Positions 4,851 through 46,364 of a stretch of 47,365 nt of DNA are shown here, one piece after another (position 1 is the first letter of the stretch; each line of letters starts with the position of its first letter). Made by a program: the position numbers and the translations under genes. Under the pieces are notes generated by a model. The model was not told where the DNA came from and ran no database searches. It worked only from the letters and a program-made list of their open reading frames with translations. The stretch is from a virus. The stretch covers positions 1 to 47,365 of IMG/VR virus record IMGVR_UViG_3300032288_003449, one strand, 5' to 3'.

Positions 4851-4872
4851 TATTTATATAAAAGAAAAAGTT

Positions 4873-5726: not shown

Positions 5727-6770
5727 ATGGTTATAAAATTTAATACTGAATCGGGATACTTTGTTGGAGAATTAGCTTATAGAAATAGTAATTATTCTGA
5801 ATCTCGTTCCGATGGTAACATCTTTTCATTTAAAAGTGAAGGTAATACTTTTGTCTTTAATTTAAGACATGCAAATGACGATATTCAACTTGATAACATG
5901 TCCGAATACGATGTTATTGAATTGGATATTACGAGATTGTGTCACTACCATGCAACCTTTGATGATATAGATAGATATTTAGAAAAATTAGACCCATCAA
6001 AAAAGTATTTTGTAATTTGGGCATATGGTGAAGGTTTAAATAATGGACATCATGGTGTTGCATTGTGGGAAAGGTTGATGAATTTTGGTGTTAAAATTTA
6101 TTCATCAACATATGATAGTCAATTAATAAAACATCCAAATTTTATTTACGATTTAAGATTTTCTTTATACTATTTTCACACGGTAAATGGTTCATGTTAT
6201 ATTAGTGGTACGGAAAGAGATAGAGTAACATATCCAAAAAAATATAAAGTAGGATTATATGGATTATCATCTTGGAAAGAAAGAGATGGTTCCGTATTAA
6301 GAACTTGGAGACATGAATATGTAGATTGGTTCAAATCTAAACCAGATACATTGGTACATTCGTATAAATCACAGGCCGAATATCAAATATCACAATATAA
6401 AAGAAATCAGCATTTTTCAACTGCATTTGATTTTTACAATTGTAATTATTTTCTAACATCAGAAACACATTTTGGAGTAATGCCTGGAACCTTTCCTTAT
6501 TTCACTACGGAAAAAATATTAAAATCGGCATATATGGAATTGTTTGATGTTAATACAATGTTGATAACATCACCTGCTCATTTTTTGGATTTACATGAAG
6601 CTGGATTTGAATTCGCTAATTCTAGGTTTATAAAAGAATATACATCGGAAGGTATAATGAATTCACTTCATGAGTGTTATAATACCGATGAAATAATAGA
6701 AACAAATAATTTAAAAGTTATTGATAATATATTCTCAGAAAACATATTTAAAAAGTATAACATAATTTAA
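5727..6770 (+). CDS. Glycosyltransferase-like protein, SEKT-motif family, paralogue 2
   Basis: A 347-residue member of the seven-protein family. The conserved block here is TTEKILKS (about residues 260-267), followed by MLITSPAHFLDLHEAGFEF, aligning with the AGPAHSLKYIQSMGYKTF of paralogue 4. It is preceded by the usual segment FDFYNCNYFLTSETHFG. The middle contains KKYKVGLYG at the place where others have FLxxGHxRxH. It lacks the SEKT Ser (T instead). Predicted glycosyltransferase (GT10/GT-B-like) by inference; the acceptor is unknown. Paralogue 3 follows closely. Confidence 0.6.
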   Translation: MVIKFNTESGYFVGELAYRNSNYSESRSDGNIFSFKSEGNTFVFNLRHANDDIQLDNMSEYDVIELDITRLCHYHATFDDIDRYLEKLDPSKKYFVIWAYGEGLNNGHHGVALWERLMNFGVKIYSSTYDSQLIKHPNFIYDLRFSLYYFHTVNGSCYISGTERDRVTYPKKYKVGLYGLSSWKERDGSVLRTWRHEYVDWFKSKPDTLVHSYKSQAEYQISQYKRNQHFSTAFDFYNCNYFLTSETHFGVMPGTFPYFTTEKILKSAYMELFDVNTMLITSPAHFLDLHEAGFEFANSRFIKEYTSEGIMNSLHECYNTDEIIETNNLKVIDNIFSENIFKKYNII

Positions 6771-6771
6771 T

Positions 6772-6939
6772 ATGAATGATATACAATTTCAAACATTGAT
6801 GGAAATGTTGAATGAAATAAAAGAGCTTTTACAACAAAATCAACAACCACAAACAAAGATTACCGTCGTAGGTAACAAACCACAAAATAACACAAAAATC
6901 CCAAAAGGATTAAATACAAATGAAGATTTTAGTTTATGA
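6772..6939 (+). CDS. Small coiled-coil-like protein
   Basis: A 55-residue protein: N-terminal amphipathic helix (NDIQFQTLMEMLNEIKELLQQN), then a Q/N/P-rich, probably unstructured tail. It sits between two glycosyltransferase-like paralogues, 1 nt after the first and overlapping the next start (ATGA). It may be an oligomerisation or partner peptide for them. No family recognised. Confidence 0.5.
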   Translation: MNDIQFQTLMEMLNEIKELLQQNQQPQTKITVVGNKPQNNTKIPKGLNTNEDFSL

Positions 6940-8030
6940 GAGTAGATTTAAATATACATGAATTATATAAAAAAATAAATGAAGATAATAAAATATGGTA
7001 TTCTGGAGATACTATTTTTATACCATTCAATGTATATTTTTTGACTTGGAAAGATATAGAAGAAAAAGTTAAAGATTATAATAATATATTTTTTACAACA
7101 AGTGAACATTTTTTAAACGAAGAATTGATTCCTGTTTTAAGAAGATGGGTAGATTCTGATAAAAAAATATATTTTAAGCATTTCACATTTGGATATATAA
7201 AGTATTTACAAAAAGTTATTGGTTCGGATAATATAATTGCACCTGATTTAGAATTGACATTTTTGATGGCAGCAGGTAATTGTAATATGATGAGGTCATA
7301 TGAAAATAGAATCCATCACCATAATACTAAAAAAATACTATTAAATTATATGACATTTAATAGAACTTTATCAAAAGATTTTGTGATGGATAAAATCATA
7401 TTACCAAACAATTTACAATTAAACGATAAAAATTTAATATCATTTCATAATTACGAAGGTAGAGGTGGGAAAAATACTCCAGAACTTTTAAAAAAATCAA
7501 GCTATCTTTATGATAGACCTGAACATAGAGAATTTATTTCTAAGTTTAATATTGATTTGGATAAATTAACGGATTTAAAAATAATACCAGAAAGTGAAAA
7601 TTTTAATATATCGGAGGAACAAGGTAAACAAAAAGATAGATTGTGTGAAATTCATAATCAAACCATGTTCAATATAATTTCCGAAGCATGTGTCCCATAT
7701 TCAGAAGATCCAGAAAATATATGGTATTATCACGCCTCTCTTTCACCAAAGACAATTTGGCCATTATATTTTAAAAACGTATTTTATTATAGTCCAAATC
7801 CAAAGATGTTTAATGAAGCATTGGAAGAACTTGGTTTTAAAACATTTTTTAATAATGACTCTGAATTTTTACAATCTTTAAATGAAGAATATTATTATAG
7901 TACCGAAGTTCAAGAAAAACTATTTCATAATCATATGCAATTAAAAAAGATTTTAGATAATAATCTCATAGTTGGAAAAGAAAATAAAAATATTGAAAAT
8001 TGGATTGAAAAACACATAAAAATAGGGTAA
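6936..8030 (+). CDS. Glycosyltransferase-like protein, SEKT-motif family, paralogue 3
   Basis: A 364-residue and most divergent member of the family. The C-terminal block reads SPKTIWPLYFKNVFYYSPN, with SPKT at residues 270-273 replacing SEKT, followed by EALEELGFKTF. Upstream are FNIISEACVPYS (the 'EIVSES' segment) and a middle KKILLNYMTFNR. Loss of the Glu in a motif otherwise kept in the family may mean altered or lost catalysis. Its start overlaps the previous stop by 4 nt. Predicted role inferred only from the family. Confidence 0.55.
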   Translation: MRVDLNIHELYKKINEDNKIWYSGDTIFIPFNVYFLTWKDIEEKVKDYNNIFFTTSEHFLNEELIPVLRRWVDSDKKIYFKHFTFGYIKYLQKVIGSDNIIAPDLELTFLMAAGNCNMMRSYENRIHHHNTKKILLNYMTFNRTLSKDFVMDKIILPNNLQLNDKNLISFHNYEGRGGKNTPELLKKSSYLYDRPEHREFISKFNIDLDKLTDLKIIPESENFNISEEQGKQKDRLCEIHNQTMFNIISEACVPYSEDPENIWYYHASLSPKTIWPLYFKNVFYYSPNPKMFNEALEELGFKTFFNNDSEFLQSLNEEYYYSTEVQEKLFHNHMQLKKILDNNLIVGKENKNIENWIEKHIKIG

Positions 8031-8089: not shown

Positions 8090-8138
8090 ATGCATAAATG
8101 GTTGATTTTGAACATATTATAAAAAAGTTTAATAAATA

Positions 8139-8170
8139 TTTGGTAATTCGGGAAAAAAGTCGTATATTTA
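8139..8170 (+). promoter_or_regulatory. Bacteroidota-type promoter for the VWA gene
   Basis: TTTG at 8139-8142, 20-bp spacer, TATATTTA at 8163-8170. A leader of about 30 nt precedes the ATG at 8206. The site lies downstream of an upstream in-frame ATG (8098), which argues that 8206 is the real start. Confidence 0.7.
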
Positions 8171-8205
8171 CATATATCCCCACAAAAAAGATAAAAACAT
8201 ATATT

Positions 8206-10461
8206 ATGAGTTGGTATGAAAACTTCAAAACCGGCACCAAAGACTATTTGGTAAAAGGTAAAAATTACGCGTCATCATTTTGGTATGATGATTACGATAC
8301 ATCTTTTGACTATCTTGAACAATATGGTAGTTTTCAAAAGAAAGATTTAGATGCTTATAAAAAGACACATAATCTTTACAAATTGGCATCGGTTAGAAGA
8401 GCGGTTTCAAATTTCGTTCAAATTGTAACTAACAAATCAATACCCGTTTCATTCGCTACAAAAAGTGATAGTAAAACGGATGGTGAAAAAGTTATCCTTT
8501 CTGCAGATGTAGATGATAACTTTGACGTATCAGTTGGTTTGGCATTACACGAAGGTTCTCACATCATTCTTTCTGATTTCAAATTGTTGAAGCAGATAGC
8601 AGATTTGAGAAATGCACTTTCTCGTATCTCATCCGATATTAGATATATCAATGAGATGAATCTTTCAAATGGTAAAGTTGAAATGACAAAAGATGAAACG
8701 GATAAATATATTGAAGATTATGTTCAAAAATATATACACGCACTTTCACCTGATTTCAAAACTCAAATGAATGACATTTACTCTAACAAAGGTAAAATTG
8801 GTAGTAAAGGTTATCCAACGGATGAAGTTGTAGATATTGTACAAGGTCTTACGAATTGGATTGAAGATAGACGTATTGACCATTACATATACAATTCAGC
8901 ACCTGGTTATAGAGATTATTATGTGAGTATGTATGACCACTATTTCAACGATAAGGCTGTAACAAAAGGTGTAAAGAGTGATGAATTTACGGAAGAAACA
9001 TTTGAAAGTTATATGTTCCGTATTATCAACTTATTAAATACCGAAACCAACCTAACCAAATTGAAAGGTTTGAGAGCAATCTATCGTAAATTGGATTTGA
9101 AAAATATACATAGATTGAAAACTACAACTCAATCATTAGAACTTGCAATTGATATTGTAGATGAAATTTTACGATATGTTCCAATGCAAGAACAACCTAA
9201 AGCTGCCGGTAAAGGTGATGGTAATAACAAAGATGGTCAACCAAATGGTAAGCAAGGTGATAGTGATGTAAATGAGCCGGGTGATGAAGAAAACGAACAA
9301 ATGGGTGGAGCAAGTGGTGATGCACCTACAATGGGTGAAACTGGTAAAGATATGTTATCAAAATCAGCTGCAGAACAACTTGCTAAAAAGTTCCAAAAGC
9401 AAAAAGACTTTTTGAATGGTGATATTAAAAAGAAAAAACTTACCAATCAAGAAAATAGTAAGTTGGATGATATACAAGAATCAGGTACCGAATTGGTTCG
9501 TGTAGGTAGTGATTTGACAAATGATAGGGGTGAGAGAATTGGTAAAGGTGTTGATTGTATCGTAGTGAAAAAACTTACGAAAAAATTGATGGAATCGGAT
9601 GATTTTCCTTTTACCAATCGTAGATGGAATGATGATAGATTGAATAGTAGATATGAAGATGATGTAAAGCGTGGTATAATGTTGGGTACTCTATTGGGTA
9701 AGAAATTACAAATCAGAAATGAAAGTAGAGAAACAGTCTTTAACCGATTGAAGAAGGGTAAAATTGATGGTAGATTGGTTGCAACATTGGGTTACGATAA
9801 CGAAAACGTATTCTATACAAAAGATGTTGACCAATTCAAAAAAGCTAACTTACACATCTCAATTGACTATTCTGGATCAATGAGTGGTAGTAAGATTAAG
9901 AAAGCAATCACATCGACTGTAGCTATTATCAAAGCTTGTCAAATGGCTCGTAACATCAATACGCAGGTATCCATTCGTTCAACCGATACGGGTGGTAGAG
10001 GTTTACCTTATATTGCATTGGTTCACGATAGTCGTAGAGATTCATTTAGACAATTTTGTGATTATATGAGTAAATTGGATGTAACAAATACTACACCCGA
10101 AGGTTTGTGTTTTGAAGCAATTATGAAACAACTTATCCCTACAACAAATGATACGGATAGTTATTTCTTAAATTTCTCAGATGGACAACCAACATATAGT
10201 ATCAATAGTGGTGGTGATGATATACATTATAGTGGAAGAAATGCTGCAGAGCATACCTACCGACAAGTGAAAAAAATGATGGGTAATGGTATCAATATCT
10301 TATCATACTTTATCACCGATTATGGTGGAAGTAACTTTGAACATTCTACCGATTGGGAGATTTTCAAAAAGAGTTATGGTAATGATGCCAAATATGTAAA
10401 TGTTGAGAATATGTTTGAAGTTGCTAAAACAATGAATGAGATGTTCTTAAAAAAATCATAA
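8206..10461 (+). CDS. VWA-domain protein with an HEGSH metallopeptidase-like motif
   Basis: A 751-residue protein. Residues 1-110 are aromatic and charged. LHEGSHIILSD (HEGSH at 115-119) looks like a zinc-binding HExxH site. A Gly/Asp/Asn-rich acidic linker spans about 325-390. The C-terminal third is a von Willebrand factor A domain with the MIDAS motif DYSGS (554-558), a TxT-like segment NTTPEG and SDGQP. This resembles CobT-like VWA partners of MoxR/CobS ATPases, and the next gene encodes just such an ATPase, so the two probably form a metal-dependent chaperone or remodelling complex. Their target in a phage infection is unknown. Confidence 0.8.
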   Translation: MSWYENFKTGTKDYLVKGKNYASSFWYDDYDTSFDYLEQYGSFQKKDLDAYKKTHNLYKLASVRRAVSNFVQIVTNKSIPVSFATKSDSKTDGEKVILSADVDDNFDVSVGLALHEGSHIILSDFKLLKQIADLRNALSRISSDIRYINEMNLSNGKVEMTKDETDKYIEDYVQKYIHALSPDFKTQMNDIYSNKGKIGSKGYPTDEVVDIVQGLTNWIEDRRIDHYIYNSAPGYRDYYVSMYDHYFNDKAVTKGVKSDEFTEETFESYMFRIINLLNTETNLTKLKGLRAIYRKLDLKNIHRLKTTTQSLELAIDIVDEILRYVPMQEQPKAAGKGDGNNKDGQPNGKQGDSDVNEPGDEENEQMGGASGDAPTMGETGKDMLSKSAAEQLAKKFQKQKDFLNGDIKKKKLTNQENSKLDDIQESGTELVRVGSDLTNDRGERIGKGVDCIVVKKLTKKLMESDDFPFTNRRWNDDRLNSRYEDDVKRGIMLGTLLGKKLQIRNESRETVFNRLKKGKIDGRLVATLGYDNENVFYTKDVDQFKKANLHISIDYSGSMSGSKIKKAITSTVAIIKACQMARNINTQVSIRSTDTGGRGLPYIALVHDSRRDSFRQFCDYMSKLDVTNTTPEGLCFEAIMKQLIPTTNDTDSYFLNFSDGQPTYSINSGGDDIHYSGRNAAEHTYRQVKKMMGNGINILSYFITDYGGSNFEHSTDWEIFKKSYGNDAKYVNVENMFEVAKTMNEMFLKKS

Positions 10462-10534: not shown

Positions 10535-11773
10535 ATGAGTAGAACTACTACTACGAAAAAGACAGTGGATGCCAACGTTGGCTTCACAAATGAGTGTTAC
10601 AAATCTATCCAAGTTGGTAGAGCATTCGCATTGATGAATACAACAGGTGATGTTGTAACAAAGATAGCCGGAATAAGTAAGGCTAAAATAAAACAAGCAC
10701 ATAGTGAAGGAAAAGCACTACGTGGTTATGTAGGTAAGAATGGTAATTTGACCTACAAAATGGTTGAGATGGATGAGTTTAAAAAATTAGCTAACACAAT
10801 CAATGATGAAGCGTGTGATAGTGTAAGTGAAGCATTTGAAACACATGATGCATTGAAACAATTTATCCATGAGAAAGGTGGTGAATTGAAACCAGAAGGT
10901 TTATTCATTGAATCGTTGAAGTGGAAATACTTATTACGTTCAGCAGTTCGTGGTAAGAACATTATGATGACAGGTCCTACTGGTTGTGGTAAGACATTGG
11001 CAGCACAATCATTGGTTCGTTCATTGAAACGTCCTGATTTCTATTTTAACTTAGGTGCTACACAAGACCCGAGAGCAACACTTATCGGTAATACACACTT
11101 TAACAAAGAGAGTGGTACATTCTTTAGTGAGTCTGCTTTCGTTAAAGCTATTAAGACACCAAACGCAATTATCTTATTGGATGAGATTTCTCGTTCTCAC
11201 CCAGAAGCTTGGAATATCTTAATGACTGTGTTGGATAGTGGACAAAGATACTTACGTTTGGATGAGGCTGAAGGTTCACCAATCGTAAAAGTTGCAAATG
11301 GTGTGACGTTTATCGCCACGGCCAATATAGGAAATGAATACACGTCTACCCGTATTATGGATAGAGCTATTATGGACCGTTTCGTTCAAATCGAAATGGA
11401 CTTGTTAGATAAACAAAGTGAACTTGCTTTATTGAAGTTTAAGTTCCCTGAAGCAGATGAGTATTCATTGAATGCATTGGCAGAGATTGCCGATACAACT
11501 CGTCAATTGATTAAAACTGATATGAGTAAAGTATCTACAATCGTATCAACCCGTGTGAATGTAGAAGCGGCTGGTTTGATTTATGATGGTTTCTCATTGA
11601 TGGAAGCAGCAGAGATTGCAATCTTACCCTATTTCAGTAATGATGGTGGATTGGATAGTGAGAGAGTATTCGTAAAACAATTGATTCAAAAGTATGTAAA
11701 GACTAATGAAAGTGAATTGTTCAACGAAGTGAAAGATGAACAACCTGCTGATGAAGAAACGATAGTTTGGTAG
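10535..11773 (+). CDS. MoxR/CobS-type AAA+ ATPase
   Basis: A 412-residue protein with an N-terminal extension (1-125) and a AAA+ core: Walker A GPTGCGKT (147-154), Walker B IILLDEISRS (212-221), sensor 1 FIATANIG (259-266) and arginines in RIMDRAIMDRF (273-283). The core pattern fits the MoxR/CobS group, which couples ATP hydrolysis to metal insertion or protein remodelling with a VWA partner, here the gene immediately upstream. It is bounded by terminators on both sides. The physiological target is unknown. Confidence 0.88.
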   Translation: MSRTTTTKKTVDANVGFTNECYKSIQVGRAFALMNTTGDVVTKIAGISKAKIKQAHSEGKALRGYVGKNGNLTYKMVEMDEFKKLANTINDEACDSVSEAFETHDALKQFIHEKGGELKPEGLFIESLKWKYLLRSAVRGKNIMMTGPTGCGKTLAAQSLVRSLKRPDFYFNLGATQDPRATLIGNTHFNKESGTFFSESAFVKAIKTPNAIILLDEISRSHPEAWNILMTVLDSGQRYLRLDEAEGSPIVKVANGVTFIATANIGNEYTSTRIMDRAIMDRFVQIEMDLLDKQSELALLKFKFPEADEYSLNALAEIADTTRQLIKTDMSKVSTIVSTRVNVEAAGLIYDGFSLMEAAEIAILPYFSNDGGLDSERVFVKQLIQKYVKTNESELFNEVKDEQPADEETIVW

Positions 11774-12738: not shown

Positions 12739-13662
12739 ATGGCATACGATAATTTAGATGCATGGCAAAGGCGCCAATTAGAAATTGAAGAACAAGAAAG
12801 ACAAGAACAATTAGAAAGACAATTAAAACAAAAACAAATGGTAAAAGGTATTGTGGTAAGTGTAGTAGGTTTTATCCTATTAGTATTTTTATTTATGTCA
12901 TGTGAGAGAATTGATGCAGGACATGTGGGTGTTAAAGTGAATCAGTATGGTGATAACAAAGGTGTAGATGATGTAGTAGCAGTTACCGGTATGGTATTCT
13001 ACAATCCACTTACAACGAGAGTATATGAGTTCCCAACATTTATTCAACATAAAGAATATAAAGGTGATAATTCATTTATTGTAAATAGTAAGGATGGTTC
13101 GGAATTTGCAGTATCACCAATTATGAATTACTCAGTTCAAAGGGAAAAAGTTCCTGCAATATTTAGTAAGTATCGTAGACCATTGGAAGATATTGAGGAA
13201 GGATTCTTAAAGACAGCAGTGTACGATGCATTCAGATTGGCAACCAACAAATATACGGCTGATGAATTGATTAGTAATAGAGCAGTATTTGAAGTTGAGG
13301 TTCGTAGATTATTAGATGCACAATTGTTAAAGGAGGGATTCGTTATCAATCAGTTCACATCTAACCTGATTTATCCTGAAACGTTTAAGAAATCAATTGA
13401 AGCTAAGAACAACGCAGTTCAGGCAGCATTGAGAGCAGAGAATGAAGTTAAGACAGCAGAAGCACAGGCAAAGATTAAAGTAGCAACAGCAGAAGGTAAT
13501 GCACAGGCGATGTTGACATCTGCTAAAGCGGAAGCTGAAGCAAATAGAATGAAGCAACAAACCCTTACTCCATTGTTGTTACAATTAGAATACATTAACA
13601 AATGGGATGGTAAGTTACCAGTTTATGGACAAGTACCACAAATGTTTAAGAATATTCAATAA
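12739..13662 (+). CDS. SPFH/Band 7 (prohibitin-like) membrane protein
   Basis: A 307-residue protein: charged N-terminal helix rich in Q, E and R (10-33), transmembrane helix (about 35-53), then an SPFH domain (RIDAGHVGVKVNQYG, KDGSEFAVSPIMNYSV) and a C-terminal coiled coil rich in A, E and K with repeated 'AxAEA' stretches (about 225-275). Such proteins form large ring or cage assemblies at the inner membrane. Phage copies may alter the host membrane or protect proteins; that is inference. A second SPFH gene lies at 34968. A tRNA-like minihelix begins at its stop codon. Confidence 0.85.
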   Translation: MAYDNLDAWQRRQLEIEEQERQEQLERQLKQKQMVKGIVVSVVGFILLVFLFMSCERIDAGHVGVKVNQYGDNKGVDDVVAVTGMVFYNPLTTRVYEFPTFIQHKEYKGDNSFIVNSKDGSEFAVSPIMNYSVQREKVPAIFSKYRRPLEDIEEGFLKTAVYDAFRLATNKYTADELISNRAVFEVEVRRLLDAQLLKEGFVINQFTSNLIYPETFKKSIEAKNNAVQAALRAENEVKTAEAQAKIKVATAEGNAQAMLTSAKAEAEANRMKQQTLTPLLLQLEYINKWDGKLPVYGQVPQMFKNIQ

Positions 13663-26004: not shown

Positions 26005-26592
26005 ATGAAAAAGTTATTGTTTGGATTACTGATATTACTTACAAGTTGTAGTAAAGAAATAGTAACCCCTGATGTACCCAAACCAAAATTATCTCTTTCA
26101 ATAGACCCATTATTACCAATTGATAGTAATGGGTACTATCATTTTAAATTGTTTAATAGAAATCCGCTTGGAAACAATTTACACAAGTTTAGTGGAAAGA
26201 TGTTAATTGATAACAATCCACCACCCGTTGGTGAACCTGTTATAGTTGAATATGAATGTTCGCATTATGGTATGTTACCGAAAGGTGGAGTTATTATCAC
26301 AGGAAAGAAAAGTTATATAAATACATTTACAGGTATGTGGACAACGGTTATCTTACCATCAAATATTGCAATGGCTGATTATGTATTTCCAATCATAACA
26401 TCATCTTGCTATGTGAATAGACAAACCGGCGATATAAACGGAGTAGTTGAACCAACATATGAAATGAGAGGTGATACTATGTTAATTGCAGCAAAATCGG
26501 TTTATAGATGGGTAACCAAAAGAGATGGTGTTTGGGAAACCGGTTGGGCTAAGGATTCGGTTATTGATATAAAGAAAATAATTTTGGAATAG
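26005..26592 (+). CDS. Predicted lipoprotein
   Basis: A 195-residue protein with a clear lipoprotein signal: MKKLLFGLLILLTSCSKE, with the lipid-receiving Cys at 15, followed by KEIVTPDVPKPK. The remainder is beta-rich. The lipobox suits Bacteroidota lipoproteins. A phage-encoded lipoprotein could be a surface exclusion factor, but nothing proves this. Confidence 0.7.
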   Translation: MKKLLFGLLILLTSCSKEIVTPDVPKPKLSLSIDPLLPIDSNGYYHFKLFNRNPLGNNLHKFSGKMLIDNNPPPVGEPVIVEYECSHYGMLPKGGVIITGKKSYINTFTGMWTTVILPSNIAMADYVFPIITSSCYVNRQTGDINGVVEPTYEMRGDTMLIAAKSVYRWVTKRDGVWETGWAKDSVIDIKKIILE

Positions 26593-26629: not shown

Positions 26630-26947
26630 ATGAGTAAGACTAAAGAAGAATTTATGAAACAACAATTTACAGGCTCCTTAGATGAAAGAGGGGATGAAGA
26701 TTATTTATATGAACAATATCTTATTCAAGAAAAATTGAATGAAGAATATTGGCAATGGTTAAGTATTAAAGAAAATAAAAAAAGTGTATTTTCGGATGAT
26801 GTACATCGTGATAAGCCGCATTCTATATTTCCGGATGAAGTACAATATGATGATGAATATTACAAATCAAGTTATCTACCTACCAAAGAAGAAGAGGAAG
26901 AGAACTTTAAATCAACATTTGATGGAAAAAATACTACTAGGATTTGA
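26630..26947 (+). CDS. Acidic hypothetical protein
   Basis: A 105-residue protein rich in E, D, K and Y, with a short internal repeat: SVFSDDVHRDKPHSIFPDEVQYDDEYY. It overlaps the next gene by 26 nt and is translated from the 26583 promoter. No family recognised. Confidence 0.5.
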   Translation: MSKTKEEFMKQQFTGSLDERGDEDYLYEQYLIQEKLNEEYWQWLSIKENKKSVFSDDVHRDKPHSIFPDEVQYDDEYYKSSYLPTKEEEEENFKSTFDGKNTTRI

Positions 26948-28298
26948 TATTGTAACTTATAATGGTGAAATACCAAATTGTTTAGACCCAAAGTTTTTAT
27001 CAACAATACATCAAGCATCTGATTTTGATTATAGATTTTCAGGTGAGGGATTTAAAAAAAGATGGAACGAAGATTGGGCAATATACAATAGTGGATTTTG
27101 GGATAATCATTCTATTAAAAAATCGGTATATGAAATTACCAAATATCATCCGAATGAAAAATGGTTTTATATGGTAGAACCATTTGGTAATATTGAACAA
27201 TTTTTTGGTAATCATCAATTTTATAATAAACTAATTTTAGAAAATATTTCATCGGTAGCATTGAATGAAATAAAAAATGGTAATGGAAACTTACTTATAA
27301 ATTATATAGTTGATGGTGGATTGGGAGTTACTACTTTTAATTTTAAAAAGATTATAGAATTTACAAGAAATAATAATATACCAGATGAGAAAGTATATTT
27401 TATATTTCAGGATTTTAACTTATTGGAAAACATAAAAACTTTAGGAGTAAACTACAATGTTATTGATTACAATTGGGCACATCATTTAAAATCAACTGAA
27501 TTTTGGAACACTATAAACATTCCAAATTGGAGTTTTTGGCCTGAAGATACATACGAACCACAATTCGGTAAAATGGAAAAAGTAAAGAGTTCTATTGCAT
27601 CTTATGATGAGTTTGAAAATTCAATTGGTAAAGATAAAAAAGATTTCTTATTTTTATGTAGACATTGGAAAAAGCATAGATTACATATTTTAGATTCTTT
27701 ACATAAAATTGGATTTGAAAATAATTTGGTAAGTTGGGATAATAGATTCTTTGATGTTAATGCTGTTAATCACTATTATTTAGATGCTAATAATACTGAT
27801 ATGATTGAGTTAATTAAAACAACATCAAAACATTTAGATATAGAAGATATAACTAAAATTGCCGGATATGGATATGAGGATAAAAACTTATACTTAAATT
27901 CTTATTTGAGTATAGTATCCGAATCCGTTTTCTTTCAAAATGAAGTGAACTTCCCAACAGGATATCTAAGTGAAAAGATATGGAAACCAATAGGACATTC
28001 TCAACCATTTATATTGGCAGGCCCTGCACATTCATTGAAGTATATTCAAAGTATGGGATATAAAACATTCCACCCATACATTGATGAAAGTTATGACAAT
28101 GAAATAGATGATTTGAAAAGATTAAAAATGATATTATTAGAGATTGAAAAATTTAGTAATAAAACAAAAGAAGAAAAGGATGAATTTTTAAATAATATAA
28201 AAGATATTGTAAAATATAATCAAGAATATTTTTTAAATTATGCACAAAATGTAAGTCCAAAAAATATAAACAATATTGTAGACAATTTATTAAAATAA
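26922..28298 (+). CDS. Glycosyltransferase-like protein, SEKT-motif family, paralogue 4
   Basis: At 458 residues this is the longest member. It has an N-terminal segment with GFDIVTYNGEIPN, a middle FLFLCRHWKKHRLHILDSLHKIGF and the C-terminal SEKIWKPIGHSQPFILAG (SEKIWKP at 350-356), then SLKYIQSMGYKTF and SYDNEIDDLKRL. The SEKxWKP.GH/PFIL.G stretch is the closest here to the GT10 motif. The ATG at 26922 overlaps the previous gene; an alternative start at 26784 would make an implausible N-terminus. Confidence 0.7.
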   Translation: MEKILLGFDIVTYNGEIPNCLDPKFLSTIHQASDFDYRFSGEGFKKRWNEDWAIYNSGFWDNHSIKKSVYEITKYHPNEKWFYMVEPFGNIEQFFGNHQFYNKLILENISSVALNEIKNGNGNLLINYIVDGGLGVTTFNFKKIIEFTRNNNIPDEKVYFIFQDFNLLENIKTLGVNYNVIDYNWAHHLKSTEFWNTINIPNWSFWPEDTYEPQFGKMEKVKSSIASYDEFENSIGKDKKDFLFLCRHWKKHRLHILDSLHKIGFENNLVSWDNRFFDVNAVNHYYLDANNTDMIELIKTTSKHLDIEDITKIAGYGYEDKNLYLNSYLSIVSESVFFQNEVNFPTGYLSEKIWKPIGHSQPFILAGPAHSLKYIQSMGYKTFHPYIDESYDNEIDDLKRLKMILLEIEKFSNKTKEEKDEFLNNIKDIVKYNQEYFLNYAQNVSPKNINNIVDNLLK

Positions 28299-28909: not shown

Positions 28910-29106
28910 TGGGATTTAATCAATGTTATATATCATCCGTTGAAAACCTACAAATTGAATTAAACAATATAGGTTTAGAATCATTCGTTAGACGTTATAG
29001 AAAATATGAATGCATAACAGGTCCTAACGAATCGTTTAGATTTTTAGAAGAAAAAATAAAAGAATATGAAGAATTTATTAATAATACTAATGATAACATT
29101 AATTAG
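28909..29106 (+). CDS. Hypothetical small protein
   Basis: A 65-residue protein: alpha-helical second half (FRFLEEKIKEYEEFINN). Overlaps both neighbours: 1 nt at its start and 41 nt with the lipoprotein after it. No family recognised. Confidence 0.45.
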   Translation: MGFNQCYISSVENLQIELNNIGLESFVRRYRKYECITGPNESFRFLEEKIKEYEEFINNTNDNIN

Positions 29107-30331
29107 TTGTAAAAAAGATGTTATACAACCCACTACACCACCACAACAAACAGAACAAAACACCTTTGTTAAAATAAAAACCCAAGTTTCGCCAATAAAT
29201 AGCGAAACTTCTTTTTATAACACAATGGATAAAAGTTATTTTGCTGGTTTTGATTTTTTAAAGAATATAACATTAGAATCGGGTGAACAATTTAATTTAG
29301 GTGCTGCATGGTCTATTTTTGATTTAGATAAAGATGGTGATGATGATTTTATAATCGCTAGTAATAATTTTCAATCAGAGAAAAGAGCAAACATCTATAT
29401 TTTTAAAAACGAAAATAATAAACTTATTTTTTGGAAAAAGTTACCTGGTTTATTTTGGGGTAGAAAAGGTATATTGGGTGATTATGATAAAAATGGTTAC
29501 TTAGATTTTTTAGTAGCTAGTCATGGTTTTGAAAATCCATCAATTAATTATTATCCCGGTGATGAAATTGGAATCGTTTATTTCTTTAAAGATAGTGTAG
29601 ATATTTCATATATAGATGGTTCAAAAGAATTCAACCACACAGCTGCTAGTGGTGATATAGATAATGATGGGGATATTGATATAATTACCGCCGACTCAAA
29701 ATATATTAACAATGGAAACAAAAAGTTCAATAAAACAAAATCCGTATTTGCATCTAATTTAGATTTAACTACAAAAATTAATGTTGGATATTATCATAAT
29801 GAGTTGTATGATTTAAATAATGATGGCAATTTAGATTTGTTAATGGGTTGTAGTGAATTATTTGGTGACTCGGTTTGGGATGGAACAGGTAAAAAATTCA
29901 ACGGAAGAAATAGAATATATTGGGGTGATGGTAGTGGCAGTTATTATTATTCTAATTCAACACAATTACAAATGACATACCCAGAAACAAAAGATACATT
30001 TGGTATTGTAGATGATTTTAATTTTTATGATTTTAACAAAGATGGATATGAAGATATAATTATTTTCAGAAGTTGTTGGAGAGGTGCAGGATATTATATC
30101 CAATTTTTAGAAAATAATAAAGATAAAACCTTTAAAGAAGTTTCCAAAGAAAGAATGGAAAATTATAAATTGAATTTACCAAATGCAAAACCAAACGAAT
30201 TTGAATGGTTGGTTTGGATTAGATTTGTAGATTTAAATAAGGATAATAAATTGGATATAATAGGTAGAGAGGGTAGCAAATCCGAAATGAAGTGGATTAA
30301 TGATGGTAATAACTTTTTTAAATTACAATAA
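29066..30331 (+). CDS. FG-GAP/VCBS-repeat lipoprotein
   Basis: A 421-residue protein with a lipoprotein signal MKNLLIILMITLISCKKD (Cys at 15) and at least six DxDxDG-type calcium-binding motifs, including DLDKDGDDD, DYDKNGYLD, DIDNDGDID, DLNNDGNLD, DFNKDGYED and DLNKDNKLD, each followed by a hydrophobic strand, as in FG-GAP/VCBS beta-propellers. Such propellers bind ligands or other cell-surface proteins. A phage-encoded surface lipoprotein could block receptors or change host attachment; that is inference. Its start overlaps the preceding gene. Confidence 0.8.
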   Translation: MKNLLIILMITLISCKKDVIQPTTPPQQTEQNTFVKIKTQVSPINSETSFYNTMDKSYFAGFDFLKNITLESGEQFNLGAAWSIFDLDKDGDDDFIIASNNFQSEKRANIYIFKNENNKLIFWKKLPGLFWGRKGILGDYDKNGYLDFLVASHGFENPSINYYPGDEIGIVYFFKDSVDISYIDGSKEFNHTAASGDIDNDGDIDIITADSKYINNGNKKFNKTKSVFASNLDLTTKINVGYYHNELYDLNNDGNLDLLMGCSELFGDSVWDGTGKKFNGRNRIYWGDGSGSYYYSNSTQLQMTYPETKDTFGIVDDFNFYDFNKDGYEDIIIFRSCWRGAGYYIQFLENNKDKTFKEVSKERMENYKLNLPNAKPNEFEWLVWIRFVDLNKDNKLDIIGREGSKSEMKWINDGNNFFKLQ

Positions 30332-31561: not shown

Positions 31562-31858
31562 ATGAGTGAAACACCTATGATATTGCATATAGAACTATCA
31601 AATCAATCAATTTATAGTTGGGTAAACGAAAATAAATATATAATATTTTCAGAGATTGTAAGATATGCTTCTAAAATGATTGAAGAAAATATAAAAGTAA
31701 TACAAGCGATAATTGTATCAAATTCATATGATAATATTGTTTTTATTTTAAAAAAAGATGGTATTAAAAATAGTTTACAAAAAGCAATGGACTATTTTTT
31801 AGAAATAGAGGAATATGAAAAGTGTTCAGAAATTAGAGATTTATTAAATAAGTTATGA
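31562..31858 (+). CDS. Small protein with a UVR-like motif
   Basis: A 98-residue protein abutting the previous stop. Its C-terminal FLEIEEYEKCSEIRDLL resembles the UVR motif (DYE..A.IRD.I..L) of UvrB/UvrC and Clp adaptors, a coiled helix pair that mediates protein interaction. The first part is alpha/beta. The similarity rests on one short motif. Confidence 0.5.
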   Translation: MSETPMILHIELSNQSIYSWVNENKYIIFSEIVRYASKMIEENIKVIQAIIVSNSYDNIVFILKKDGIKNSLQKAMDYFLEIEEYEKCSEIRDLLNKL

Positions 31859-32943
31859 TAACATTCAAAGAATTAAACAAATACAATGATGTCATTGATG
31901 TTTGTGAAGAAAGTATTGCAATCAAAAATGCAATAATATTGTATGGTCTATTTGAAACACCTAAAAATGTTTTACATTTATTTTACAATGGTGGATATGA
32001 TATAAAATCAATTGGAAAGATTATTGATTTAACTCATTATGATAAGGTAATTTTAGATTTTAGTGGTGCTGATGATTTCTTATTAAGATTTTATGATATA
32101 GATAATGTAAAATCAAAAATAAATGCAAAAGAAATTTATGTAATATCTAAAAATATATTTGAGAAGCCTGGGTATATGTATAATGACCCAATCATGCATA
32201 GAATAAAAATATTAGATTTTGAATTAAAAAATGAAATCAAAGAATATTTTTATTTCTTATTGGGTGGACATGCTAGATGGCATCGTTTATTGTTTTTAGA
32301 TAAACTTTTAAATAAAAATCAATTACATAAATTGAACTGGTCTTGCAGACGAGTTGAAGAAGAAAATCCATCAATGGTGAGAAGCTGTATTCCGTTAGAA
32401 TATGTAAATATTTACAAAGATTTAGAAATACACAAATTATTACCAAAGAGTTTGGATTTTGATATTCACGATCAAGCCGAATATCATAATTTTGGAGATG
32501 CATCAATATTTGATAATCCTGGTTATGTTGCTAATTTAGATTTCTATTATAGTAGTTATGTTGAAATAATATCTGAAAGTGTTTTTGAGTTGGCAATCAA
32601 TCCAGCTAAAAAAGATTTAGAATATTTTATAATATCAGAAAAAACATTTAAACCTTTGGCTTTGGGATTTCCATTTTTTGGACTATGTTTACCAAAAACA
32701 TTTTCAAAATTAAAAGAATGGGGATTTGAATTGTTTGATGAAATAATTGATTATTCGTTTGATGATGAATTTAATGATGAGAAACGAATGAATATGATTA
32801 TTGAGCAAATTTGCAATGATGATATAAAAGAAAAGTTTGATAAAAACTTTGAAACCATAAAAAATAAACATTTACATAATAGAAAAATGTTTATAAGTTT
32901 AAAAGAAAGATTACTTAAAAATTATGAAAAAATTATCCTTTAA
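31855..32943 (+). CDS. Glycosyltransferase-like protein, SEKT-motif family, paralogue 5
   Basis: A 362-residue member with LLGGHARWHRLLFLDKLLNKNQL in the middle, then NLDFYYSSYVEIISES and the C-terminal SEKTFKPLALGFPFFGLCLP (SEKT at 261-264), then LKEWGFELFDEI and DDEFNDEKRMNMI. The GH.R.HR middle motif is shared with paralogue 6, its downstream neighbour, with which it overlaps by 20 nt. Predicted GT10/GT-B-like transferase. Confidence 0.7.
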   Translation: MITFKELNKYNDVIDVCEESIAIKNAIILYGLFETPKNVLHLFYNGGYDIKSIGKIIDLTHYDKVILDFSGADDFLLRFYDIDNVKSKINAKEIYVISKNIFEKPGYMYNDPIMHRIKILDFELKNEIKEYFYFLLGGHARWHRLLFLDKLLNKNQLHKLNWSCRRVEEENPSMVRSCIPLEYVNIYKDLEIHKLLPKSLDFDIHDQAEYHNFGDASIFDNPGYVANLDFYYSSYVEIISESVFELAINPAKKDLEYFIISEKTFKPLALGFPFFGLCLPKTFSKLKEWGFELFDEIIDYSFDDEFNDEKRMNMIIEQICNDDIKEKFDKNFETIKNKHLHNRKMFISLKERLLKNYEKIIL

Positions 32944-34111
32944 TAAATTAGAAAGAAAAAATTCACTTATGGGTGGATTTGAATATTCGTTTCGTTCTAT
33001 AAAACCCCATACAGAAGGATTAACTGAACTTGCAAATTCTTTTGTTGAAAAGGGATATCAATTTGAAGTAGTAGATAATAAAAATTTAGACAATGAAACA
33101 TCTCTTATAGTAAGTATATCTGTTATTGATATGGATGATGTTGAGCTACTACAAAAAATAAAAGAAATACTAAAATTAGATTGTAAAAATATATTTGTAG
33201 AATTGAGTTGTTATGACCATCAAGAAATTGATATAAGACTTTATGATTTTTGTAGAGAAAATTGTAATAAAGAATTGTGGTTTATTGATAAAAATATGTT
33301 GAAAGTTGCAGATGATTGTTTATTTTTTGAACACCATTGTTGGCATACCAATATGTATATGCCAAAATATAACGATTCCTTTGTACAATTAAACAAATGG
33401 TTGGAAAAATTTCAAAAACCACATAAAGGATTATTTTTAGCAGGACATATAAGATTCCATAAAATAGAATTACTAAACTATTTGTATGAAAATAATTTAT
33501 TGGATGAAAATTTTATTTGGAGTTCAGTTGATGAAACATTTCAATCAAATAATTTTAGAGAATTTATTCCAGAAAGAGATGAACAAACATATAGGTCTTT
33601 TAAAATCTTAGAAAGATTACCAAATATGCAAGACTTTGATTTATTTGATGAATGGAAGTATCACAATTATCCGGCACATATAAATTATATGAACTATTTC
33701 AATACTTATTTTGAAATTGTACCCGAAACACATTTTTACGATAGAACTAATTTGAGAGGTGGTACACGCAATACAAGAAAAGATTGGGTAAGTATAAGTG
33801 AAAAAACTTGCAAAGCATTACGAATGAATATACCATTTATAATGTTATCAAAAGCAAATACCGTTAAATTATTAACTGAAAGATTTGGATTTGATGTTTC
33901 ATTGGATTTTTGGAATCACAACTACGATTTAATCGAAAACGATAATGAAAGAATGAATGCAGTTCAATTAAAACTAAAATCGATATTAGAATTACCAAAA
34001 AATGAAATACATGATTTTTATTATCAATATTTTAATAATAAAAAGAATTATGATATATTTATTCAAAATTTTTACTACGAACAATTAAATGAAATTTGGA
34101 ATAAATTTTAA
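32924..34111 (+). CDS. Glycosyltransferase-like protein, SEKT-motif family, paralogue 6
   Basis: A 395-residue member with LFLAGHIRFHKIELLNYLYENNLL (middle motif), NYFNTYFEIVPETHFYD and SEKTCKALRMNIPFIML (SEKT at 292-295), then LTERFGFDVSL. It follows paralogue 5 in tandem, the only adjacent pair in the window. The initial 100 residues (VIDMDDVELLQKIKEIL) are alpha/beta. Predicted GT10/GT-B-like transferase. Confidence 0.7.
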   Translation: MKKLSFNKLERKNSLMGGFEYSFRSIKPHTEGLTELANSFVEKGYQFEVVDNKNLDNETSLIVSISVIDMDDVELLQKIKEILKLDCKNIFVELSCYDHQEIDIRLYDFCRENCNKELWFIDKNMLKVADDCLFFEHHCWHTNMYMPKYNDSFVQLNKWLEKFQKPHKGLFLAGHIRFHKIELLNYLYENNLLDENFIWSSVDETFQSNNFREFIPERDEQTYRSFKILERLPNMQDFDLFDEWKYHNYPAHINYMNYFNTYFEIVPETHFYDRTNLRGGTRNTRKDWVSISEKTCKALRMNIPFIMLSKANTVKLLTERFGFDVSLDFWNHNYDLIENDNERMNAVQLKLKSILELPKNEIHDFYYQYFNNKKNYDIFIQNFYYEQLNEIWNKF

Positions 34112-34967: not shown

Positions 34968-35519
34968 ATGTTTGATAAGTTGATAACATTGCTGCAAGAA
35001 TTTTGGCAGCAAATGAGTCCTTTCTATATTGTTGATATGTGGGAAAAAGGATTACATTTAAGATTTGGAAAATTTCATACGATAAATGATCCAGGTATAC
35101 ATTTAAAAATACCATTTTTTGATAGTGTATGGATGCAGACAGTAGTCACACAATCTATTGATTTAAGACCACAATCCATTACATCAGCAGATTCTAAAAA
35201 TATCGTAGTGAAAGCAATCGTTAGATATAATATTAGTGATGCATTTTTATTCTTAACTAAATTGGCACATCCGACAGACGTATTGATTGATACGACAGGT
35301 GCGATGATTAGAGAAATTATTGAGGAAAGAAATTGGGAAGATTTGGTTGATGTAGAAGAAGAACTTACTGAAAAGATTGGAACGAAGTTAAGTGAGTGGG
35401 GTATTCAAATTGAAAAAGTAACACTAACCGATTTAGCAGAAATACAAAGTATTAGATTGATTGGTGATAGTGTAGAAAATAAAACAGCAGTTGTATTACA
35501 AAACTTAGAACATACATAA
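34968..35519 (+). CDS. SPFH/Band 7-like protein 2
   Basis: A 183-residue protein with an SPFH domain: VDMWEKGLHLRFGKFHTINDPGIHLKIPF (about 19-47), ITSADSKNIVVKAIVRYNI (67-85), then helices with IREIIEERNWEDLV and KVTLTDLAEI. There is no obvious transmembrane helix, but residues 1-22 are hydrophobic and could associate with a membrane. Shorter than the first SPFH protein and lacking its long coiled coil. It is the first gene after its own promoter. Confidence 0.75.
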   Translation: MFDKLITLLQEFWQQMSPFYIVDMWEKGLHLRFGKFHTINDPGIHLKIPFFDSVWMQTVVTQSIDLRPQSITSADSKNIVVKAIVRYNISDAFLFLTKLAHPTDVLIDTTGAMIREIIEERNWEDLVDVEEELTEKIGTKLSEWGIQIEKVTLTDLAEIQSIRLIGDSVENKTAVVLQNLEHT

Positions 35520-37154: not shown

Positions 37155-37322
37155 ATGGCAGCATACAAATTATTAAAAGGGTTGAATGAGTCTCTAAAAA
37201 AAATAGAAACAACAAACCCGAATAACTGGTTTGAAAGATGGGTAAAACGTATTAAAGTAAAATCAATTAAATACAGAATATGTGAAATTGAAAATGACTT
37301 AAAAGAAAGAAAAAAAAGATGA
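37155..37322 (+). CDS. Small basic protein
   Basis: A 55-residue very basic protein (WFERWVKRIKVKSIKYR, ending KERKKR). It overlaps the start of paralogue 7 by 4 nt (ATGA), so it is coupled to it. Nucleic-acid or membrane binding is possible; no family recognised. Confidence 0.5.
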   Translation: MAAYKLLKGLNESLKKIETTNPNNWFERWVKRIKVKSIKYRICEIENDLKERKKR

Positions 37323-38407
37323 AATACTTAAAAAGTATATTACAATCGGAAAATATGTTACACCAATTTCAAAATTTTGAAGAATGGATTGGTTTAAATA
37401 ATGCAGATATCGCAAATGATGTATGTTTAATATATTATAATAATTTGAGAAATTTATCTGAATCTCAGTTACTAAAAAGATGTTCAGAAAAAATTAAATT
37501 AGGTCAATATAAAAAAGTAATTTTATTTGCTGTTGATATGGATTGGATAGCAAAACAGGAAGATGTTGATATCATTACAAATAATTTAAATGATGTATTT
37601 GGTGAAAATATTACTAAAATAGTATTAACTTTATGTAGTAGAAGTTGGATACGAGATTGGAAAAATATTAACACAATAGAAAACTTTGGGTGTTTATCCA
37701 TGGTTATTGATAGAAATATACAATTAACCAAAAATTTTGATTTACTAAATTTAGATAGAGAAAAGCATTTCATTACAACAAATAATGAACCACGTCCAAT
37801 TAGAATATATTTGTATGATTATCTAATTAAAAATAATTTATTAGATAAGTTTGAATACTCATTCTTTGCAGCGCAACCAAATGATTATATAACTTGGGAA
37901 GATAGAGTTGGTGGTGAAGATGGATTTGAAAAAATAACAGGTAAGTTTCCTAAAAAAACATTTGATAATGAAATTATAAAAGATAAAAACTATGATGTTC
38001 AGTTGGTAAATATGAAATATGAGTTGAATAGTTATTTTTCATTATTGATGGAAACAAATTATATGAATGGTGGAACTTATTATGGTTTTTCGGAAAAATC
38101 ATTTAAAGGTTTTGCAACAAAAAAACCTTTTATGTTATGGGCATCACCATCTGCACCAAAAGGATTAACAGAAATGGGATTTAAATTATATGATAAAATA
38201 TTTGATGTAGAAGCAATGTCAGATAATTCTCACAATATGAGAATGAATAGATTCTTTGATGACTTGAAAAGAATATGCGATTTACCTATCAATCAAATAC
38301 GAAATATGTATATTGATAGTATTGATACAATAGAATATAATTACAATAATTTAAATAGATTAATAGAAAAAGAAAAAGAAGATTTAATAAATTTAATAAC
38401 AAAATAA
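37319..38407 (+). CDS. Glycosyltransferase-like protein, SEKT-motif family, paralogue 7
   Basis: A 362-residue member. The middle has HFITTNNEPRPIRIYLYDYLIKNNLLDKFEYSF; near the end FSLLMETNYMNG, then SEKSFKGFATKKPFMLWA (SEKS at 258-261), TEMGFKLYDKI and SHNMRMNRF. All the family landmarks are present, with Ser for Thr in SEKT. Predicted GT10/GT-B-like transferase; acceptor unknown. Confidence 0.68.
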   Translation: MKYLKSILQSENMLHQFQNFEEWIGLNNADIANDVCLIYYNNLRNLSESQLLKRCSEKIKLGQYKKVILFAVDMDWIAKQEDVDIITNNLNDVFGENITKIVLTLCSRSWIRDWKNINTIENFGCLSMVIDRNIQLTKNFDLLNLDREKHFITTNNEPRPIRIYLYDYLIKNNLLDKFEYSFFAAQPNDYITWEDRVGGEDGFEKITGKFPKKTFDNEIIKDKNYDVQLVNMKYELNSYFSLLMETNYMNGGTYYGFSEKSFKGFATKKPFMLWASPSAPKGLTEMGFKLYDKIFDVEAMSDNSHNMRMNRFFDDLKRICDLPINQIRNMYIDSIDTIEYNYNNLNRLIEKEKEDLINLITK

Positions 38408-38626: not shown

Positions 38627-39133
38627 ATGAGATTAAGAGAAGCAACTGCCGAATTGCATAGTAAAGCAGAAAAAATGGAATTCAATCAAAGAATGTTTAG
38701 AGGTGAATTGAGTAATGATGAATATTTAAATTACTTAATTCAACAATCTTACATTTTTCAAGAAATTGAAAATAGAAATGTACCACATGATAGTTTAAAA
38801 AGATTATCGGCAATTCAGGAAGATATAAACGAATTGGGTGGATATAAGTTTGAAATATTAAAATCAACATCAGACTATTTTATTTATTTAGGTGATTGTA
38901 ATCAAACACAATTAAATGCACATATATACTTAAACTATTTAGCGTTGGTATATGGTGGGCAGATGATGAAATTAAAAGTACCCGGTGGTGGTAAAATGTA
39001 TGATTTTGAAAATATGCAAGAATGTATAGGTAGTGTAAGAGCAATTCAAAATGATGAAATGGCTGAAGAAGTAAATAAAGGATTTCAATATATTATAAAC
39101 ATATTAGATGAATTACAAACAAAAGTTAGATAG
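38627..39133 (+). CDS. Heme oxygenase (compact)
   Basis: A 168-residue protein with the heme-oxygenase pattern: LREATAELHSKAE near the start (the proximal, heme-ligating His would be His11), FRGELSNDEYLNYLIQQSYIFQEIE (about 23-47) and HIYLNYLALVYGGQMMKLKVPGGG (about 106-129). Heme oxygenase opens heme to biliverdin, iron and CO using reduced ferredoxin or another electron donor. At 168 residues it is shorter than typical forms. The next gene encodes a bilin reductase and overlaps by 26 nt, so the two would be translated together: heme to biliverdin to a reduced bilin. Confidence 0.82.
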   Translation: MRLREATAELHSKAEKMEFNQRMFRGELSNDEYLNYLIQQSYIFQEIENRNVPHDSLKRLSAIQEDINELGGYKFEILKSTSDYFIYLGDCNQTQLNAHIYLNYLALVYGGQMMKLKVPGGGKMYDFENMQECIGSVRAIQNDEMAEEVNKGFQYIINILDELQTKVR

Positions 39134-39737
39134 TACCGCTGAATCTTTACAAACGATTATAGAATACTCTGCCGAAGCAAAGATATTACCAACGGAAAAT
39201 TATGGTTGGCAAAATATAAGATTTAGTTCCGATTATTTTAGATACGCACATATTGAAAGATATTCGGATAAGAATTTGGAAGTATTACATTTTACCTGTT
39301 TTCCAAACGAATGGTGCAGTGACCCTATTTTTGGATTTGATATTATTACTACCGATAAAAAATGTTTAGCAGCATTTATGGATATGAGTCCGGTAGATAA
39401 TAAAAAAACATTTAGTATTGATGGTAAATTTACTACACCTTACAAATTACCAGATTGGGCAAAGTTAATATTTTCAGAAAATGCATTAGCAGTAGTTCCA
39501 ACGGATGATGAATTTGAAATGATATGTGATATGGCACAACATATATTTACATCATATTTAAGTGATTTGGTTGATTGTAAAGAAAAATCATTAAGAGTTG
39601 AATATATAAAAGCAGCACAAAATCGTTATTGCGAACAACAACAAAAGAATGAGAGAACCTATAATGTATTAAAAGCTAAGTTGGGAGCAGATAAAGCAAA
39701 ATACTTTATGGAAAATATATTATTTCCAAAAATATAA
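39108..39737 (+). CDS. Ferredoxin-dependent bilin reductase (PcyA/PebS/PcyX superfamily)
   Basis: A 209-residue protein with the family core: AHIERY (Glu50), LEVLHFTCFPNE (His61), DPIFGFDII (Asp78) and AFMDMSPVDN (89-98). The His-to-Asp distance of 17 matches my memory of PcyA His88 and Asp105; PebS has Asn in place of that His. These enzymes reduce biliverdin at set double bonds using ferredoxin, giving phycocyanobilin, phycoerythrobilin or similar products. It overlaps the heme oxygenase gene, which would supply biliverdin. The particular product cannot be decided from the sequence. Confidence 0.85.
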   Translation: MNYKQKLDSTAESLQTIIEYSAEAKILPTENYGWQNIRFSSDYFRYAHIERYSDKNLEVLHFTCFPNEWCSDPIFGFDIITTDKKCLAAFMDMSPVDNKKTFSIDGKFTTPYKLPDWAKLIFSENALAVVPTDDEFEMICDMAQHIFTSYLSDLVDCKEKSLRVEYIKAAQNRYCEQQQKNERTYNVLKAKLGADKAKYFMENILFPKI

Positions 39738-39852: not shown

Positions 39853-40419
39853 ATGAAAAATTTAATTATAGTAGCACATCCTGATAAAAATAGTTTTTGT
39901 TATAGTGGTATTATGAAAACTATTAAACAAACACTTATTAAAAATCAAGAGGAAGTACATGTTATTGACCTTTACAAAGAAAATAAAACATTTGACTTTG
40001 GCAAAGATAAAGTAAGAGAATATAAAGAACTAATACAATGGACGGATAGAATTTACTTTGTATCTCCTGTTTGGTGGTTTAGATGTACACCTATGTTAGA
40101 ATCATTTTTTGACCAGATTTTCACTCCAGGTTTTGCATATAAATTTACACCCGTTACAAAAGTGTATGGATACCCAACACCTTTGTTGAGTGATAAGAAA
40201 GTTAGAACATATCTTACACACGGAGCACCTGCCCTACCTGTATTAACTATGTATTTCAATTCAGTTAAGTTGAGGTTGGTGATGGGAGTTTATTCTTTTG
40301 TATTTGGTTGGTTTAAAACAAAGACAAGACAATTTTGGAGTGTACCTTTTGTTTCTCACAATGAAAGAATGATTTACTTGGAAAGAGTAAAGGAAGATAT
40401 TAGAAAAGATTTAAAATAA
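39853..40419 (+). CDS. NAD(P)H-dependent flavodoxin-fold oxidoreductase
   Basis: A 188-residue protein of the NAD(P)H quinone-reductase/KefF/MdaB group: KNLIIVAHPDKNSFCYSG (1-18; phosphate-binding loop), YFVSPVWWFRCTPMLESFFDQIF (about 68-90) and LTHGAPA (117-123). It binds FMN and reduces quinones or similar acceptors. Located right after the bilin reductase, it might supply electrons, detoxify the product, or serve a separate role; the association is inference. Confidence 0.8.
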   Translation: MKNLIIVAHPDKNSFCYSGIMKTIKQTLIKNQEEVHVIDLYKENKTFDFGKDKVREYKELIQWTDRIYFVSPVWWFRCTPMLESFFDQIFTPGFAYKFTPVTKVYGYPTPLLSDKKVRTYLTHGAPALPVLTMYFNSVKLRLVMGVYSFVFGWFKTKTRQFWSVPFVSHNERMIYLERVKEDIRKDLK

Positions 40420-46211: not shown

Positions 46212-46285
46212 GCGGAGATAGTGTAATGATGTTAGCACGTTATTCTTCCAGATTAAAAGAGTTAGTTCGATTCTAGCTCTCCGCT
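46212..46285 (+). tRNA. tRNA-Gly (anticodon TCC), second copy
   Basis: Acceptor GCGGAGA pairs with TCTCCGC. D-arm GTG/CAC, anticodon loop CTTCCAG with anticodon TCC, and T-arm GTTAG-TTCGATT-CTAGC. The anticodon stem TTATT/ATTAA has a U-U mismatch at 30:40, the same place as in the first tRNA-Gly at 6-77. The rest of the sequence differs considerably. No CCA encoded. Confidence 0.85.
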
Positions 46286-46364
46286 CTACATTGATTGAAT
46301 ATCTCGTTACTTACTCAAATGGTTATTCTCCGATTTACTTTACAACAAAGTTCAATCAATTTAT

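Follow-up and report, generated by a model that had tools for sequence, protein, structure and literature searches.

Phage-borne pairs of a heme oxygenase (HO) gene and a ferredoxin-dependent bilin reductase (FDBR) gene have been described from both marine and fresh water. The marine HO-FDBR cassettes characterised so far all carry the reductase PcyX (PMC11480375), as in the viral, pelagiphage-type hemO-pcyX cassette (Mosig EXVC030M; PcyX EBK42635, PDB 5owg). The freshwater phage CB_2 carries a vHemO-vPcyA pair, and its reductase lacks Asp55 of PcyX and forms phycocyanobilin (PCB) (PMC11480375). The initial annotation of our locus had described phage bilin genes as known mainly from cyanophages and related marine phages, a view that needs widening since a 2024 paper described this freshwater phage with its PCB-forming PcyA and assigned it to Alphaproteobacteria (PMC11480375). 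In the same year the making and destroying of bilins by phages of non-photosynthetic bacteria was called "still enigmatic" (PMC11480375).

Here we describe a HO-FDBR cassette in a 47,365-base IMG/VR virus contig (G000) that is probably a fragment; it was analysed over its whole length and is called the window below. The cassette belongs to a separate clade of the known phage HO-FDBR kind, in which the reductase is of the PcyA type and the HO is atypical; its phages very probably infect Bacteroidota. Like the hemO-pcyX cassette it is phage-borne, consists of a HO gene followed by an overlapping FDBR gene and encodes a reductase of the PcyA superfamily. The two cassettes nevertheless fall into separate clades: PcyX has Asp at the position of PcyA Glu76 and is paired with a HO that has the distal Asp, whereas the window has Glu and Leu at these positions. 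Their hosts also differ (that of a pelagiphage versus very probably a member of Bacteroidota), and the window FDBR is only 36% identical to that of Mosig. With CB_2, which we compared by its description only, the window shares a freshwater-type phage pair and an FDBR without the PcyX Asp; CB_2 differs in its vAlaS and its alphaproteobacterial assignment; no alaS was found in the window-clade records searched. Cyanobacterial and cyanophage PcyA have the same Glu/His/Asp triad and fold as the window FDBR, but the cyanobacterial proteins are only about 29% identical to it, are encoded at loci without an adjacent HO and belong to photosynthetic hosts.

The cassette and its overlapping reading frames

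The cassette comprises the following features.

38627..39133, + strand: HO-like gene, first gene of the cassette, 168 aa (Pfam PF01126, 51 bits; fold model)
39108..39737, + strand: FDBR gene, second gene of the cassette, 209 aa (Pfam PF05996, 89 bits; fold model)
39108..39133, + strand: HO/FDBR overlap of 26 nt (sequence)

Coordinates, strands and overlap agreed exactly with the initial annotation on re-checking. The HO start context is aataataatATG, without a Shine-Dalgarno (SD) sequence. The FDBR ATG lies within the HO codons TTA GAT GAA, which belong to a conserved C-terminal DELQ motif. In all 39 window-clade cassettes the two genes overlap in the same phase (2 mod 3), by 11 nt at least and 68 nt at most.

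A bilin reductase with a complete PcyA triad

The 209-aa ORF matched Pfam Fe_bilin_red (PF05996) with 89 bits (cut-off 31, E 5e-25), which upholds the family first proposed for it, and also phrog_7278, ferredoxin oxidoreductase (2e-24). Its AlphaFold model, built from the family alignment, has a mean pLDDT of 96.3 and the alpha/beta/alpha fold of FDBRs, and Nostoc PcyA was the best Foldseek match (TM 0.88). The NCBIfam PcyA equivalog model gave 97 bits against a cut-off of 206, and the protein is therefore no orthodox PcyA. Three codons define its active site.

39255..39257, + strand: FDBR Glu50 codon, equivalent to PcyA Glu76 and to Asp in PcyX (alignment)
39288..39290, + strand: FDBR His61 codon, equivalent to PcyA His88 (invariant in PcyA/PcyX-type rows)
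39339..39341, + strand: FDBR Asp78 codon, equivalent to PcyA Asp105 (invariant in all rows)

Alignment with Synechocystis PcyA placed Glu50, His61 and Asp78 opposite Glu76, His88 and Asp105. His61 and Asp78, 17 residues apart, had already been recognised as FDBR landmarks and keep that role; the diagnostic Glu50 had been missed, and it makes the active site PcyA-like, not PcyX- or PebS-like. Window clade and sister group together make up 40 rows, all with the complete triad, whereas the Glu76 position is occupied by Asp in 26 of 26 AX/PcyX rows of the same tree. The window FDBR thus has Glu50 in place of the PcyX-type Asp. At the His88 position it has His61, as opposed to the Asn that is the criterion for PebS, PebA and PebB, and it lies outside the Peb outgroup. 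In the wider FDBR set Glu or Asp was called from the residue two after the His, as the aligned column is shifted in rows with a three-residue insertion.

Glu76 is specific to PcyA and required for reduction of the 18-vinyl group (PMC10151467). Judging from a residue count in the 5owg chain, which assumes a tag offset of about 8 residues, Asp55 of PcyX appears to occupy the same site. Because the PcyA triad is complete and the CB_2 enzyme fits this Glu/Asp rule, PCB is the most likely product of the window FDBR. We regard phycoerythrobilin (PEB) or a two-electron-reduced bilin, as formed by the PcyX and PebS phage enzymes, as an unlikely product. In a sequence profile search of the PDB the best match was the PEB-forming PcyX, with PcyA next, and PcyX is the reductase of every characterised marine cassette (PMC11480375); these points are outweighed by the Glu that the window clade carries in place of the PcyX Asp, by the separation of this clade from PcyX and its kin, and by PcyA as best fold match.

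This separation was seen in FDBR trees, which leave out alphaproteobacterial PcyA and CB_2 sequences. The window FDBR lies in a phage-only clade of 28 rows (support 100/99), which 12 further phage rows join with modest support (90/61; 94/84 in a second tree). Together they are the sister of an AX-like group comprising PcyX and alaS-bearing phages, inside which the PcyX rows form their own clade (100/100). Cyanobacterial and cyanophage PcyA fall outside both phage groups, so that the window clade is separate from PcyX, the Peb enzymes and these PcyA alike. Glu-bearing AX-type FDBRs combined with an Asp-type HO (L385, L386, L396 and L404, with HIE or HVE) lie at the base of the AX group, not with the window, and are probable PCB-formers outside the window clade, to judge from this residue.

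A cellular source of the reductase in Bacteroidota was considered and not retained: a scan of a genome collection with two short phage-clade patterns, which a diverged bacterial source could escape, returned only cyanobacterial PcyA of about 29% identity. Our literature search found no report of the window clade.

A heme oxygenase without the distal aspartate

The 168-aa ORF matched Pfam Heme_oxygenase (PF01126) with 51 bits (cut-off 23, E 2e-13), and a profile search against solved structures returned HO-1, HO-2 and HmuO. The AlphaFold model, again from the family alignment, has a mean pLDDT of 95.5; rat HO-1, HmuO and Synechocystis HO-1 matched it in Foldseek with TM 0.82-0.85. Both results agree with the HO family assignment of the initial annotation. 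The protein shares the fold, the proximal His and the GGQ distal helix with HO-1, HmuO and Synechocystis HO-1, but it is about 40 residues shorter, only 20-25% identical to them, and has Leu in place of the distal Asp.

38657..38659, + strand: HO His11 codon, expected proximal heme ligand (invariant in the HO alignment)
38945..38947, + strand: HO Leu107 codon, at the place of the distal catalytic Asp140 of human and rat HO-1
38954..38959, + strand: HO Gly110-Gly111 codons, distal-helix GGQ motif, equivalent to Gly143-Gly144 (invariant)

His11, Gly110-Gly111 and Arg138 are invariant in the alignment, and thus the proximal His and the GG features of the distal helix are present. None of the 39 window-clade HOs has the distal Asp of canonical HOs: the position of Asp140 is taken by Leu (Leu107 in the window), Ile or Phe. 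The alignment was anchored on the AHIY...GGQ block, which is invariant, and HMMER likewise aligned D of HO-1 with L. HOs of the sister group have N, D, P or W here, mostly N, P or W. The distal Asp is present in all 71 PcyX-cassette HOs that cover the position and in 22 of 25 HO rows of the remaining group, where the three other rows are L001 (the copy from the window), L061 (a window-type HO) and L118 (a false hit). The clade thereby offers a set of naturally varied HO active sites, each paired with its own reductase. Two divergent phage HO-FDBR pairs, L392 and L394, have Phe at the distal position of the HO and neither Glu nor Asp two residues past the His of the FDBR.

Without its distal Asp, human HO-1 shifts towards peroxidase chemistry, and the fold matches of our model include 1oyk, the D140A structure of human HO-1. 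These observations, along with the replacement of Asp throughout the window clade and in most sister rows, could mean that the HO homologue only binds heme, as a carrier, sink or peroxidase, and that the FDBR uses biliverdin made by the host. We consider this quite improbable, as His11, Gly110-Gly111 and Arg138 are invariant, selection on the gene is purifying and in the window clade it never occurs apart from the FDBR gene (see below). In HO-1 and HmuO the distal Asp holds the oxygen-activating water network, and the Asp140His change significantly reduces the activity of human HO-1 (PMC7948506); plant HO-1, however, naturally has His at this position and is active via another network (PMC7948506). 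Formation of biliverdin from heme by the window HO, as initially claimed, agrees with the family and fold of the protein; because the usual distal Asp is missing, it is likely, not assured.

The pair is conserved and under purifying selection

An alignment-query search found FDBR relatives encoded in 336 viral stretches, and dozens of related freshwater-type viruses retain the HO-FDBR pair. Essentially all of the 80 viral loci that were kept have a HO gene immediately in front of the FDBR gene; the single locus without an upstream HO is cut by a contig end. When the search was seeded with HO alone, an FDBR adjoined all 50 window-type HOs, and no window-clade HO turned up on its own. The genes around the pair vary by group: across 38 loci, HO and FDBR are the only families that all share. 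For example, the pair of the relative G002 adjoins a homologue of the window gene at 2677-3450, which in the window is 35 kb away. Values of dN/dS for close pairs were mostly 0.05-0.2 for both genes, indicating purifying selection, with two higher HO values of 0.36 and 0.51. The joint use of the two genes, proposed at the outset from their coupled arrangement, is borne out to the extent that the pairing is conserved and both genes are constrained.

The two genes have different nearest relatives. In the HO tree the window groups with L009, L010, L012 and L016 (79-81% identity to the first three), and in the FDBR tree with L007, L011, L013 and L038. On a reduced set, placing the window HO with L007, L011 and L038 was rejected (p-AU 0.004), and placing the window FDBR with L009, L010 and L012 was rejected less strongly (p-AU 0.026). 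These groupings suggest that related phages have swapped partner genes with the overlap retained.

Host assignment

SD-like sites precede 4% of window genes and 6-9% of genes in relatives, close to the expectation from shuffled leaders. By comparison, the sister group has 36% and the Microcystis phage Mel-JY01 33%, and AX phages and PcyX contigs reach 50% and 49%, respectively. Missing SD sites are typical of Bacteroidota, in which Tyr54 of ribosomal protein bS21, an aromatic residue, blocks the anti-SD (PMC9723584). Relatives of the window carry bS21, and by residue count Tyr54 is found in the L030, L032 and L033 copies. For the portal protein of the relative G003 (176 kb, T4-like), identity is 48% both to the portal of Flavobacterium phage immuto and to that of Mel-JY01, and 31% to that of Rhodothermus phage RM378. 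Two proteins of the window, with LTSCSKE and LISCKKD termini, are likewise consistent with Bacteroidota.

29066-30331 and 26005-26592: lipoproteins of the Bacteroidota type; FG-GAP repeats in one of them

The evidence from the window fragment itself comprises the SD frequencies and the lipoproteins, and that from bS21 and the portal comes from relatives. The missing SD sites, Tyr54 in bS21 of relatives and the 48% identity between a relative's portal and that of a Flavobacterium phage make it very probable that the host belongs to Bacteroidota. The non-photosynthetic Bacteroidota host of the initial annotation now has stronger backing than was first given for it. Its promoter argument is weak: the motif TTTG-N17-20-TAnnTTTG has 7 sites in the window against 3.1 expected, and 5 of 100 shuffles reach 7, so that we do not use it as host evidence.

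Infection of cyanobacteria, with the pair keeping the phycobilisome supplied with pigment as in cyanophages, is very improbable. The G003 portal is as close to Mel-JY01 as to immuto, and FDBRs are mostly cyanobacterial. However, Mel-JY01 uses SD sites whereas the window clade does not, bS21 of the relatives is of the Bacteroidota type with Tyr54, the window lipoproteins are of the same type, and the window FDBR is only distantly related to PcyA of cyanobacteria and cyanophages. A Bacteroidota host would move the question of phage bilins into this phylum, which includes cultivable Flavobacterium with isolated phages. Mel-JY01 (PP395634.1; L233 and L234), whose recorded host is a cyanobacterium, itself carries bS21, and no other AAA+ ATPase in our collection is closer to this phage group than that of Mel-JY01.

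Proposed chemistry and purpose

Taking all the evidence together, the cassette is probably a two-gene auxiliary metabolic module of a tailed phage infecting Bacteroidota. The HO would bind heme via His11 and open the ring, giving biliverdin together with CO and iron. The FDBR, translated from the overlapping frame, would take over the biliverdin and use the Glu50/His61/Asp78 triad for a four-electron reduction, most likely to PCB, with a ferredoxin or flavodoxin of the host as donor. The purpose may be heme turnover with release of iron, in which the reductase removes biliverdin and so keeps the oxygenase turning over. The initial annotation had named three candidate purposes, namely supply of a host bacteriophytochrome, consumption of heme and an antioxidant role.

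Candidates for further members of the module were not retained. A phage ferredoxin was not found in window-type phages, and a phage-encoded electron donor of this kind was set aside; the only Fer2 match of the survey belonged to Mosig. The flavodoxin-like gene just downstream of the cassette was rejected as a third member or electron donor, as it is Flavodoxin_2/KefF-like and common to no other locus.

39853-40419: Flavodoxin_2/KefF-like NAD(P)H oxidoreductase

The alaS gene (TIGR01821) is absent from the window and from all window-clade records searched, which may be fragments; it is present in G006 and G100. A survey of alaS neighbours found an FDBR within reach at 1 of 80 alaS loci.

The pair could instead supply PCB or biliverdin as a chromophore to a host bacteriophytochrome or another bilin protein, which is possible, though we do not expect it. 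In Bradyrhizobium ORS278 the HO-pcyA pair has a phytochrome gene as its neighbour, and in E. coli a phytochrome has been assembled with phage PCB (PMC11480375). Against this, neither a phytochrome PHY domain nor a Phycobilisome domain was detected in 38 phage records, and any bilin acceptor must therefore be the host's. Because the phages bring no acceptor of their own, we moderately favour heme turnover over pigment supply.

More speculatively, the Asp-less HO lineage and its own PcyA-like partner may carry out a modified heme-to-bilin chemistry with a non-photosynthetic purpose in Bacteroidota phages, a reading that we hold to be unlikely. For example, an intermediate or a non-alpha biliverdin isomer might be passed directly to the reductase, in the service of iron mobilisation or of a host light response. 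The residue-level predictions, i.e. PCB as product and a HO that works without the distal Asp, are open to standard assays.

Other features of the window

Seven large ORFs had no Pfam match where tested (419-1492, 5727-6770, 6936-8030, 26784-28298, 31855-32943, 32924-34111 and 37319-38407). At least four of them are mutually similar (phmmer down to 8e-15) with SEKT/ESVF-like motifs, an unusual expansion of paralogues, and these motifs are suggestive of glycosyltransferases. A CobT-like VWA protein (8098-10461) adjoins a CobS-like AAA+ ATPase (10535-11773), and this pair is kept in G002 and G003 at 56-80% identity. Two prohibitin/HflK-HflC-like proteins (12739-13662 and 34968-35519) and a PspC-like protein (4765-5052) are all linked to membrane stress. 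The window also encodes four tRNAs (6-156, 1492-1577 and 46212-46286), two of which are tRNA-Gly(TCC), one near each end of the contig.
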